DNA of 64,000 nucleotides. It comes from Sphingomonas sp. 28-66-16 (GTDB taxonomy: Bacteria > Pseudomonadota > Alphaproteobacteria > Sphingomonadales > Sphingomonadaceae). The translations under genes and the position numbers were made by a program. The notes beneath the pieces are model-generated. The model saw only the letters and a list, made by a program, of their open reading frames with translations, had not been told where the DNA came from and searched no databases. The stretch covers positions 1 to 64,000 of the forward strand of contig NCGF01000008.1 of NCBI GenBank assembly GCA_002281485.1, in the 5' to 3' direction. Positions 32,742 through 36,398 of this stretch are shown here, one piece after another; position 1 is the first letter of the stretch, and the number at the start of each line of letters is the position of its first letter.

Positions 32742-35700
32742 CTATCCGACGAGCGCCAGCCGCTTCGTCTCGGCGGTCTTGAGCGCTACCTCGGTGACAC
32801 CCTGCATCGTCTCGATCCGGCTCGCAAGTTCGCCGTCGAGCAGGAAGTCGCGACCGAGCAGCAATTCGGCCTCGCCGCCGCCGGGCAACGTCGCACGCAG
32901 ATAGACTTCGCCGCGCGCGCCGCGCGCCTCGGCGATCAGCGCGCCCAATTCGGCAATCACGGCGGGGGTCTCGACGGCGATCTCCATCACCATCCGGGCA
33001 TGGTTGGCGAGCGAGGCAAATGGCTGGAGCCGCTTGACCGTCACCCGCGGGGTTTCCTCCCCCGCGCGACGATCGAGTTCGACCGTGGCGATGCCGCAAT
33101 CCCCAGTGCGCGCCGCATCCTCAAGATCGGCCGATACGGCATCGTCGAAACAGGTCGCCACGAACTGGCCCGAGGCATCCGACAGCGTCGCCATCAGATA
33201 GCGCCGCCCCTTCGCCGAGGTGCGCCACTTCGCCTCCTCGACGAGCACCGCCATCGTCGCCCCGACCCGCCCCTCGGACGGAATGTTGAGCTCGCCCAGC
33301 GCCGCATAGCTTCGCGCGCCGTGCATCCGCGCGAGATGGCGGTGGCGATCGACCGGATGGGCCGAAAAATAGAAGCCGAACGCCTCGCGCTCCTGATCCA
33401 TCCGCTGCGCCAGCGTCCAGCGCGCCGACAGCGGCAACTGGATCGATGCGCCCGACGAGGGCTCGCTTTCTCCGAACAGCCCGCCCTGCCCGCTGGTGCG
33501 CTGATCGTGCAGTCGCGCGGCTACCGCCAGGATCGTCTCGGCCGCCGCAAAGATTCCCGCCCGGTTGAGATCGATGCCGTCGAAAGCGCCCGCTGCCGCC
33601 AGCGTTTCGAGCTGCCGCTTGTTGAGCAGGCGAGGATCGACGCGGGTCGCCAGATCGTCGAGCGAGGCGAACGGGCCACGCTCGACGCGTTCGGCCACCA
33701 GCCGCTCCATCGCGCCTTCGCCGACGCTCTTCAGCGCGGCCAGCGCGTAGCGGACGGCAAGCCCGTCGGCGGTCGCCTCGACCGTGAACTCGGCGTCGCT
33801 GGCATTGATGCACGGTGGCAGGATCGCCACCCCCATCCGCCGCATATCATCGGTGAACACGCCGAGCTTGTCGGTCAGCGTCATGTCGAAGCACATCGAC
33901 GCCGCGAAGAATTCATGCGGATAATGCGCCTTGAGCCACGCGGTCTGGTAGGTCAGGAGGGCATACGCGGCGGCGTGGCTCTTGTTGAAACCATAGCCGG
34001 CGAACTTGTCGATCAAATCGAACAGCTCATTGGCCTTGGCGGCGGGAATGCCGTTGGTCTTGAGGCAGCCATCGACGAAACCGGCGCGCTGGGCGTCCAT
34101 CTCGGCCTTGATCTTCTTGCCCATCGCCCGGCGCAGCATGTCGGCGCCGCCAAGGCTGTACCCGGCGAGCACCTGCGCGGCCTGCATCACCTGTTCCTGA
34201 TAGACGAAGATTCCATAGGTCTCGGCGAGGATCGGCGCGAGCAGCGGATGGGGGTATTCGATCTTTTCCTGGCCGTTCTTGCGCCGGCCGAACATCGGGA
34301 TATTGTCCATCGGGCCTGGCCGATAGAGCGCGCCGAGCGCGATGATGTCCTCGAACACCGTCGGCTTGACCGCCGACAGCGTGCGCCGCATCCCCTCCGA
34401 TTCGACCTGGAACACGCCGACGGTATTGCCGCTCTGGAGCAGGCGATAGGTGGCCTCGTCATCCCATTCGAGCGTCGACAGATCGATTTGAATGTTGCGC
34501 AGGGCAAGCATCTGCACGGCCTTCTTCAGCACCGACAGCGTCTTGAGGCCGAGAAAGTCGAATTTCACCAGCCCCGCCGCCTCGACATATTTCATGTCGA
34601 ACTGGGTGACCGGCATGTCGGATCGGGGGTCACGGTAGAGCGGGACCAGTTCGGCGAGCGGGCGATCGCCGATGACGACGCCCGCCGCGTGGGTGGAGGA
34701 ATGGCGCGGCAGGCCCTCGAGCTTCATCGCCAGATCGAGCAGGTGCTTGACGCCGCTGTCGGTGCGATATTCGGCGGCCAGCTCCGAGACGCCGTTGAGC
34801 GCGCGATCGAGCGTCCAGGGATCGGTCGGATGGTTGGGGATGAGCTTGGCGAGCCGGTCGACCTGGCCATAACCCATCTGAAGGACGCGTCCCGTGTCCT
34901 TGAGCACCGCGCGCGCCTTCAGTCGCCCGAAGGTGATGATTTGTGCGACATGATCGGTGCCATATTTGCGCTGGACGTAGCGGATCACCTCCTCGCGCCG
35001 GGTTTCGCAGAAATCGATGTCGAAATCGGGCATCGACACGCGTTCGGGGTTGAGGAAGCGTTCGAACAGCAGCCCGAGTTTCATCGGATCGAGATCGGTG
35101 ATCGTCAGCGCCCAGGCAACCACCGAACCGGCGCCCGAACCGCGCCCCGGGCCGACCGGAATGTCGTTGTCCTTGGCCCATTTGATGAAATCCGCGACGA
35201 TCAGGAAATAGCCGGGAAAACCCATCTTGATGATGACGTCGAGCTCGAATTCGAGCCGGTCGCGATAGGGCTGCGCCCAGTCGGCCTCCGCTTCTTCCCG
35301 CCCGCTTGGGCGAGGGGCCGGCGGTGCGCCTTCCGCCGCGAGAACCGCGCCTGAGGCAACGCCCACCCCTAACCCGGTTTCGGTTGAACGATGCCCCGCA
35401 TCGTTCAGGTCAGGCTGGGAGCCTGACCGTTCTGAACCTCGCGAGCGGGCGGGGGATCGGAGCGCGGCGATCTTCGCCAGCCGCATCTCCAGCCCGGCGC
35501 GCGCGTCACGGCGCAGGGCCTCGGCCTCGGCGACGGTGTCGCCGGCGAGGCTCGGCAGAATCGGCTTGCGCTTGGGCGCGGCGATCGCGCAGCGCTGCGC
35601 GACCACCAGCGTGTTGGCGATCGCCTCGGGAAGATCGTCGAACAGCGCCCGCATCTCCTTGGCCGGCTTCATCCACGCATCGGGGCAGCTTTTCGGGCGA

Positions 35701-36398
35701 TCGTCGCTGGCGATATAAGTCGAATTGGCGATGCACAGCATTGCGTCATGCGCTTCGCCGAAGCTCTGCTCGGCAAAGCAGCATGGATTGGTCGCGACGA
35801 TCGGCAGGTTGCGATCATAGGCGAGATCGAGCAGCGCCGCTTCGGCCCTGCCCTCGATCTCGTCGAGCCGCCGGGTCAGCTCGATATAGAGCCGGTCGGG
35901 GAACAACGCCTCGAGCCGATCGGCATAGGCCAGCGCGGCATCGGGCTGGTCCTCGGCGAACAGCCGGGCGAGCCCGCCCTCGCGCCCGGCGGTCAGCGCG
36001 ATCAGGCCGTCGGTCTTCCCCTCGAGCGCGGCAAAATCGACGTGCGGGGCAAGCTCGAGCGGTCGCGCGAGATGCGCTCGCGACACCAGTCCGCACAAAT
36101 TCTGATAGCCGGTCTCGTCCTGCGCATAGAGCGCAAGCCAATCGAGCGGCGCGGCAACGCCTTCGGGCATGTCGGGCCGCGCGACGCCGAGCATCGCGCC
36201 GATGATCGGCTGCACCCCCGCCCCGCGCGCCGCCTCGGCAAAGGCCATCGCGGCATAGAGCCCGTTGCGGTCGGTCAGCGCCGCCGCCGGAAAGCCGAGT
36301 TCCTGCGCGCGCTTGGCGATCGCCTTGGGCTCGATCGCCCCGTCGAGCATCGTGAACGAGGAGAAGATACGAAGGGGCACGAAACCGGCATGGGGCAT
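32742..36398 (-). CDS. dnaE: DNA polymerase III subunit alpha, with in-frame insertion
   Basis: Replicative polymerase, 1218 residues. Order: N-terminal PHP domain (FVPLRIFSSFTMLDGA, metal histidines changed, so probably no PHP exonuclease), polymerase core with GPGRGSGAGSVVAWAL and catalytic aspartates in PDFDIDF (about 458-463), HSSTHAAGVVIGD, FNKSHAAAYALLTYQ, then the beta-clamp/OB region. Residues about 314-373 do not match DnaE: a Ser/Gly/Pro-rich stretch between GLEMRLAKIAAL and YRDRLEFELDVI, encoded by a palindromic element (see the repeat entry). It keeps the reading frame. The following gene is an acyl-CoA ligase; upstream is glutathione peroxidase. Confidence 0.96.
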   Translation of the reverse strand: MPHAGFVPLRIFSSFTMLDGAIEPKAIAKRAQELGFPAAALTDRNGLYAAMAFAEAARGAGVQPIIGAMLGVARPDMPEGVAAPLDWLALYAQDETGYQNLCGLVSRAHLARPLELAPHVDFAALEGKTDGLIALTAGREGGLARLFAEDQPDAALAYADRLEALFPDRLYIELTRRLDEIEGRAEAALLDLAYDRNLPIVATNPCCFAEQSFGEAHDAMLCIANSTYIASDDRPKSCPDAWMKPAKEMRALFDDLPEAIANTLVVAQRCAIAAPKRKPILPSLAGDTVAEAEALRRDARAGLEMRLAKIAALRSPARSRGSERSGSQPDLNDAGHRSTETGLGVGVASGAVLAAEGAPPAPRPSGREEAEADWAQPYRDRLEFELDVIIKMGFPGYFLIVADFIKWAKDNDIPVGPGRGSGAGSVVAWALTITDLDPMKLGLLFERFLNPERVSMPDFDIDFCETRREEVIRYVQRKYGTDHVAQIITFGRLKARAVLKDTGRVLQMGYGQVDRLAKLIPNHPTDPWTLDRALNGVSELAAEYRTDSGVKHLLDLAMKLEGLPRHSSTHAAGVVIGDRPLAELVPLYRDPRSDMPVTQFDMKYVEAAGLVKFDFLGLKTLSVLKKAVQMLALRNIQIDLSTLEWDDEATYRLLQSGNTVGVFQVESEGMRRTLSAVKPTVFEDIIALGALYRPGPMDNIPMFGRRKNGQEKIEYPHPLLAPILAETYGIFVYQEQVMQAAQVLAGYSLGGADMLRRAMGKKIKAEMDAQRAGFVDGCLKTNGIPAAKANELFDLIDKFAGYGFNKSHAAAYALLTYQTAWLKAHYPHEFFAASMCFDMTLTDKLGVFTDDMRRMGVAILPPCINASDAEFTVEATADGLAVRYALAALKSVGEGAMERLVAERVERGPFASLDDLATRVDPRLLNKRQLETLAAAGAFDGIDLNRAGIFAAAETILAVAARLHDQRTSGQGGLFGESEPSSGASIQLPLSARWTLAQRMDQEREAFGFYFSAHPVDRHRHLARMHGARSYAALGELNIPSEGRVGATMAVLVEEAKWRTSAKGRRYLMATLSDASGQFVATCFDDAVSADLEDAARTGDCGIATVELDRRAGEETPRVTVKRLQPFASLANHARMVMEIAVETPAVIAELGALIAEARGARGEVYLRATLPGGGEAELLLGRDFLLDGELASRIETMQGVTEVALKTAETKRLALVG
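35280..35459. repeat. Palindromic repeat-like element inserted within dnaE
   Basis: About 180 bp, a multiple of three, that interrupts conserved DnaE sequence. It contains two perfect hairpins placed back to back: arms 35385-35394/35398-35407 (10 bp, 3-nt loop CCC) and arms 35408-35416/35420-35428 (9 bp, 3-nt loop GGG). The flanks are C/G-rich (CCCGCCCGCTTGGG at one side, CGAGCGGGCGGGGG at the other) and partly complementary, as in intergenic repeats. Boundaries are my estimate from where DnaE similarity stops. Confidence 0.75.

Follow-up and report, generated by a model that had tools for sequence, protein, structure and literature searches.

A palindromic repeat with a covarying three-way junction lies in frame within the dnaE gene of a Sphingomonas

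The gene for the replicative DNA polymerase of Sphingomonas sp. 28-66-16 carries, within an uninterrupted reading frame, an insertion that belongs to a covarying family of structured repeats. The insertion lies in a protein linker that is occupied by repeats of several types in other sphingomonads, and further copies of the same family stand in frame inside other genes. The most likely explanation is that dnaE received, in frame, a copy of a dispersed, non-autonomous repeat belonging to the Sphingomonas lineage, and that this copy is tolerated and translated while its structure slowly decays. All coordinates given below refer to the window, by which we mean the whole stretch of 64,000 nucleotides that was analyzed.

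The dnaE gene is located at 32742..36398 on the minus strand and encodes the alpha subunit of DNA polymerase III (1218 aa); an open-frame check found 1218 codons without interruption. A family model search identified the product by the NF004226 equivalog (1302 bits versus a cut-off of 1002), and it matches the E. coli alpha subunit (5fku_A) with 806 bits. The in-frame insert comprises about residues 315–370 and has no counterpart in L068, the closest relative fetched, which is 90% identical over the tree columns and is the sister of the window gene in the tree. A previous reading of this DNA, made from the sequence alone, had described an insert extending over 35280..35459. The insert is real, but its boundaries are better placed at about 35289..35456 (minus strand). 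The linker that contains it is 70 residues long in the window DnaE versus 13 in L068, a net difference of 57 codons or 171 nt, in agreement with the earlier statement that the segment is open in frame. When aligned with E. coli alpha, window residue 310 corresponds to residue 307 and window residue 375 to residue 318, and the insert site is the ten-residue connection formed by E. coli residues 308–317. This linker presumably joins the PHP domain to the palm of alpha. In an AlphaFold model of DnaE, which was built from a shallow alignment and was poor overall (mean pLDDT of 55), residues 317–370 appeared as an unstructured stretch with pLDDT <50 between helices 288–314 and 376–392. Judging from this model, the ≈57 insert residues are probably disordered. 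A search of an anti-phage defense library with DnaE returned no match.

Comparison of full-length copies showed that the insert is a composite repeat, consisting of inverted REP-like ends (CCCTCCCGC...GCGGGAGGG), a spacer and a 69-bp unit that forms a three-way junction, in the order REP-like left end, junction, spacer, REP-like right end (minus strand). By eye, one REP of the composite has the 69-bp unit in its 3' arm, and the unit is also found within REPs of other sequence, such as the CCCCTCCCCTTCAGG and CCCTCTCCC types. In the window, the outer inverted arms are present as REP-like ends that read AGCGGGCGGG (35444..35453) and CCCGCCCGCT (35297..35306) on the plus strand, and the junction splits the left hairpin. 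The pairing of these two arms over 10 bp (35297–35306 with 35444–35453) accounts for the partly complementary flanks that had been noticed earlier. The second REP half and the spacer (35307..35372, minus strand) were delimited by eye beside four other full-length copies of the composite, L089, L090, L091 and L107, which were found in relatives by BLASTN and are 72–77% identical to the insert. Intact inverted pairs of REP hairpins are seen in L012, L031, L056 and others.

We compared DnaE in the window with that from 80 fetched loci, giving a set of 81 genes. At the linker occupied by the window insert (site 1), REP-like palindromic pairs were found in 14 of the 81 genes. By eye, these could be assigned to at least four sequence types: the CCCTCCCGC type in the window, L032, L010, L012, L050 and L064; the CTCTCCCC type in L013 and L056; a GTTCGT type in L008, L020, L023 and L031; and a fourth type in L070 and L076. 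The alignment of sphingomonad DnaE that the sequence-only reading had suggested placed the composite of the window itself in two of the 81 genes, the window and L032 (S. psychrolutea), and found it absent from L068. A second loop (site 2), near window residue 877 and equivalent to about E. coli residues 826–831, carries REP-like inserts in five of the 81 genes (L027, L030, L040, L042 and L046). All 14 inserts at site 1 and all five at site 2 keep the frame open. The native linker at site 1 is 12–25 residues long in most of the genes; long, non-palindromic segments in L009, L067, L083 and L087 at site 1, and the segment in L081 at site 2, were not counted as REP inserts. The pattern missed L036, which was read separately, has no insert, and was left out of the tree. 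Throughout the resulting 80-row alignment of the whole protein, all rare-column runs of at least eight residues fall at sites 1 and 2. Here, "hotspot" denotes this recurrence at two loops within DnaE and implies no comparison with other genes.

A quick maximum-likelihood tree was calculated from the 80 rows with both insert sites excluded. Parsimony on this tree requires the presence of an insert to change 11 times at site 1 and five times at site 2, each change being a gain or a loss. The composite of the window recurs in L032 at the same position and in the same orientation, yet the two genes are not sisters in the tree, which may reflect independent insertion, an ancestral insertion followed by loss, or exchange of dnaE. 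In the S. faeni group, L040, L042 and L046 have a recent-looking 50-bp palindromic pair at site 2 that is missing from their close relatives L028 and L029. The L060 record, titled Arthrobacter sp. TPD3018, was placed among Sphingomonas in the tree and is probably mislabeled. In a wider sample of the order (69 DnaE sequences fetched from 137 matching non-window genomes and judged from their peptides), three were REP-like at site 1: L202, L256 and L240, the last of which is a remnant; one of the three comes from another genus. Some species of the 80-locus set recur in this sample, and the two counts are not additive. Insertions near window residues 85, 535 and 855 were also seen in the order sample and were not REP-like by eye.

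Selection is the best explanation for the hotspot: in an essential protein, an insert can persist only if it contains no stop codon, preserves the frame and falls in a flexible loop. The two loops would thus mark what selection tolerates and not where insertion is targeted. An alternative is that the dnaE linker serves as a sequence-specific landing site for an enzyme that moves REPs, as might be suggested by the four or more repeat types situated within a few codons of each other and by the similar GAAGAAG codons that follow several of the inserts. However, the linker DNA is divergent between species, the inserts in CarA, UvrA, IleS and site 2 of DnaE lie in other sequences, and selection for tolerance accounts for the pattern without any targeting. 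We therefore consider a landing site unlikely.

In-frame copies with the gene continuing on both sides were found in seven genes besides dnaE, in line with the likeness to the palindromic elements inside Rickettsia genes that had been proposed earlier. Apart from DnaE, represented by the window (L156) and by S. psychrolutea (L032, the same sequence as L130), junction copies are located in IleS (L089, at the same place as L131), CarA (L132 and L163, in one linker from two species), UvrA (L166), squalene-hopene cyclase (L173), MetH (L133), GlyS (L104) and MutL (L098, in the opposite orientation). The identity of each of these host genes is supported by family models, although for MetH, owing to an incomplete fetched frame, the best matches do not reach the curated cut-off. 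By eye, GlyS (L104) has a second REP-like insert too.

In-gene copies of the junction are a minority. Eight of the 49 loci that were viewed (the 29 loci of L130–L159 other than L155, and 20 further loci) are in genes, namely L156 (the window), L130, L131, L132, L133, L163, L166 and L173; the remaining 41 look intergenic, lie at gene ends or fall in spurious frames. A long open frame is weak evidence that a copy is inside a gene. L137 was rejected as an in-gene copy since its frame looks spurious, as was L148, where the end of the element coincides with the beginning of a frame that resembles biotin synthase by eye; L105 and L109 are ambiguous in location and are not among the in-gene copies listed. 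Three of the six reading frames are stop-free in 8 of 11 copies, two in 2 of 11 and one in 1 of 11. The frame that is read in genes is nearly always identical, a preference that is biased because the search query was in that frame. When 20 copies were sampled regardless of frame (three from the source genome, nine from G010 and eight from G436), none was judged to be in a gene, on the basis of open frames and third-position GC only and with L192 and L199 left unsettled. L182, L192 and L199 overlap long frames; in L182, the element is upstream of the likely start.

It could also be argued that the insert has been domesticated and alters the behavior of the polymerase, for example its fidelity. 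Several repeat types occur at one DnaE linker and at a second loop, and UvrA and MutL are among the other targets; the available text of PMC3733652 also stresses replication and repair genes, and its authors speculate on changed function. However, the unrelated repeat types encode unrelated peptides in one and the same loop, the sister L068 has no insert, and IleS, CarA, GlyS, MetH and hopene cyclase are targets as well. With unrelated peptides, an insert-free sister and such varied targets, tolerance fits better than a common function. We regard domestication as quite improbable, and the tolerated insert is presumably neutral or harmless.

The DNA of the insert was described in the sequence-only reading as two perfect, adjacent hairpins with 3-nt loops. 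Both are exact: the 10-bp hairpin pairs 35385–35394 with 35398–35407, and the 9-bp hairpin, which directly adjoins it, pairs 35408–35416 with 35420–35428. They are not separate, however, but belong to one three-way junction with a closing stem, located at 35373..35441. The 9-bp hairpin corresponds to stem P2 (35408..35428), with a CCC loop on the coding strand, and the 10-bp hairpin to stem P3 (35385..35407), with a GGG loop on the coding strand, while the closing stem P1 is formed by a 5' half at 35431..35439 and a 3' half at 35376..35384, all on the minus strand. The window copy keeps 24 of the 28 junction pairs; the four non-pairs are all in P1, which is partly decayed, and P2 and P3 are intact. 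The covariance model (R1) matches it with 80.5 bits (E = 1.4e-20 in the window), a score for a copy that was itself part of the model. The pattern of the 10-bp hairpin with up to three mismatches did not arise in any of 100 window shuffles. That of the 9-bp hairpin (8-bp arms, up to three mismatches) arose in 19 of 100, and this hairpin is therefore weak when taken alone. The 180-nt segment folds more stably than all of 200 shuffles on either strand, with z-scores of −3.2 and −4.0, the latter for the coding strand. Rfam 15 yielded no family at its gathering score within 35100–35650, and three matches of 15–20 bits versus gathering scores of 45–50.

Altogether, 59 distinct copies of the 69-bp unit were recovered, of which 58 are exactly 69 nt long and could be aligned without gaps. 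The consensus comprises a P1 of 9 bp, a P2 of 9 bp with the loop CCC (54/58) and a P3 of 10 bp with the loop GGG (54/58). Across the 58 copies, pairing is kept in 98.4% of the 1,624 pair cells, compared to 87.3% when shuffled, and compensatory changes on both sides occur at 19 of the 28 pairs. Double changes were observed in 166 cells versus 35.5 in the shuffles, and none of 500 shuffles scored as high on any of these measures; controls in which the partners were slid gave only 25–39% pairing. The model found 20 further copies, two of which (L196 and L199) were dropped for their length; in the 18 of standard length, 483 of 504 pairs are kept, with 136 double changes. The junction is thus a real structured repeat family. 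The loops of P2 and P3 (alignment columns 23–25 and 45–47) are nearly invariant and mutually complementary, which suggests a loop–loop contact between CCC and GGG. In the few loop variants, no compensation is apparent. In G010, the copies L188, L189 and L190 lie beside sequence resembling CCTCCCCCGCCAGG, together with longer mosaic repeats; this may be another REP host family.

The strong fold of the coding strand (z = −4.0), the closed junction and the complementary flanks might be taken to mean that the segment is removed after transcription, as an intervening sequence, or is skipped in translation by ribosome bypass. This is highly improbable, since all of the site 1 and site 2 inserts are open in frame. 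Moreover, the departures from pairing counted from the alignment include 11 G–T versus 16 A–C, in small numbers and among copies related to one another. With G–T not above A–C, nothing points to a fold that is read at the RNA level, and this fits maintenance of the fold as DNA.

BLASTN of the insert against 60 relatives and the source genome gave matches in 11 of the 61, with up to eight per genome. The covariance model detected the junction (E ≤ 1e-5) in at least 214 of 295 Sphingomonas genomes and in at least 22 of 196 genomes of the order. All 22 belong to one family and represent 6 of 63 genera; four of them match weakly, with best E-values of 4.9e-10 to 5.1e-6. These genome counts are lower bounds, since no more than 17 or 26 candidates were scored in each genome. 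The sequence-only reading had asked for recurrence by BLASTN, and this was found in the relatives. In the source genome, BLASTN gave only weak partial matches and no second copy, nor did a search with the hairpin pattern find one; what looked like evidence against dispersal was overturned by three copies from the structure model. The source genome thus has at least four junction copies, in dnaE and at C9:22225, C48:76200 and C1:80446. The three outside dnaE are identical to the consensus at 46–49 of 69 positions, keep 25–26 of the 28 pairs and look intergenic, the C1 copy being just upstream of a likely gene start. Together with the copies in related genomes, they uphold the original idea of an intergenic repeat that has inserted into an essential gene. 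The source genome has plain REP palindromes of the CCCTCCCGC type at one place, the same number as in the control. We also searched 15 carrier genomes and found at least 42–62 scored repeat matches in each, from 117–523 candidates of which 25 were scored. Among the matches listed, there are further copies of the carrier's own insert type in the genomes of L056, L012, L020 and L023, further copies in the L008 genome via the L020 type, and none of the own insert type for the other ten carriers.

That the segment is native, fast-evolving DnaE sequence and repetitive by chance, as the natural variability of the linker and the long, non-palindromic linkers of L009, L067, L083 and L087 might allow, is refuted by the homologous copies that other genomes carry at unrelated loci, and by the three additional junction copies in the source genome.

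Events of this kind are already known; the junction family and the DnaE hotspot appear to be new. Among the closest parallels, judged by described features, are the palindromic elements (RPE) of Rickettsia, repeats of about 100–150 bp that, in the available text of PMC10969869, PMC2229807 and PMC3767692, occur in intergenic regions as well as in frame within conserved genes, where they encode a conserved peptide. The dnaE repeat differs from RPE in its host lineage and in its core, a three-way junction that covaries and is housed within a REP. With GTAG and CGTC REPs and REPINs, it shares two inverted hairpin units with a spacer, a large number of copies and a mostly intergenic location with some copies in genes. 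It differs in that one REP carries the 69-bp junction and in that no RAYT gene was found in the source genome; according to the part of PMC3733652 available, CGTC REPs in general have no dedicated transposase. Dispersal of the REP/REPIN kind is seen across the relatives, and in the source genome as the four or more junction copies and the single, control-level plain palindrome. MITEs such as ERIC, Correia and QMITE1 are likewise small and non-autonomous, with inverted-repeat ends and open frames (available portions of PMC10969869 and PMC2229807). Terminal inverted repeats of this type measure 10 bp in the dnaE insert, for which, unlike MITEs, no parent transposase was seen; a target-site duplication could not be read from the diverged flanks.

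The sequence-only reading knew of no description for sphingomonad dnaE. In the open-licence literature, we found no title or abstract start naming a repeat with a three-way junction in Sphingomonas, or any repeat inside dnaE of sphingomonads, and the term "sphingo" is absent from the main text of PMC12306157. S. alaskensis and 'E. lithoralis' are species that we take to be sphingomonads. REPs have been reported in tRNA synthetase and truB genes of these two species, and inside genes of several species more widely, many of them replication and repair genes (PMC3733652, as far as its available text goes). The same text describes a REP in dnaE of R. conorii, whose intragenic repeats correspond to RPE-4 and RPE-6, as well as REPs that occupy roughly matching positions in the recB genes of two species of Xanthomonas; to this extent, REPs inside genes, including dnaE, had been published. 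It discusses both neutral loop insertion and altered activity. An insert-bearing guanylate kinase is active with a changed affinity for its substrate (Abergel 2006, cited in the available part of PMC2229807).

Dispersed, junk-like repeats can in this way supply proteins with new segments, and in-frame repeat insertion, best known from Rickettsia, is seen here in free-living bacteria. With repeats of several unrelated types at the same two loops, this essential polymerase amounts to a dense natural experiment, in which the question of tolerance or function can be addressed directly by comparing occupied and empty alleles. The junction, whose CCC and GGG loops hardly vary, offers a defined substrate for seeking the mobilizing enzyme.

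In the mechanism that we propose, two inverted REP ends that form a REPIN-like pair, one end bearing the 69-bp junction, would have been copied into dnaE, perhaps via folded single-stranded DNA and by an enzyme supplied in trans. It would have landed in frame within the linker that matches residues 308–317 of E. coli alpha. As additional residues are presumably tolerated in this loop and several frames of the element contain no stop, the insert would not have been purged; it would be translated as the predicted disordered segment, and its DNA structure would be slowly lost after insertion, as in stem P1. More broadly, and tentatively, the 69-bp junction may be a new kind of non-autonomous mobile element that moves as folded single-stranded DNA with the help of an enzyme and uses several REP families as landing sites. 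Because of its stop-free frames, it may, along with its host REPINs, repeatedly give rise to new loops in essential sphingomonad proteins of replication, repair, metabolism and translation.

No Y1 transposase (PF01797, RAYT-type) was found in the source genome, which is 86% complete, and this family was detected in 2 of the 23 genus genomes searched, a set that contains the source genome. The two 3-kb loci around these Y1 genes (L117 and L118) contain inverted repeats with arms of at least 10 bp, but neither CCCTCCCGC nor CCCTCTCC. A RAYT route is thus without support here, because Y1 is absent from the source genome and neither principal REP motif occurs at the Y1 loci. Inspection of the insert by eye gave no readable target-site duplication, the flanks being too diverged or the empty and filled sites too unlike. 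In L117, a long inverted repeat around 1884–1956 lies beside the Y1 transposase gene and is probably the end of that insertion sequence.
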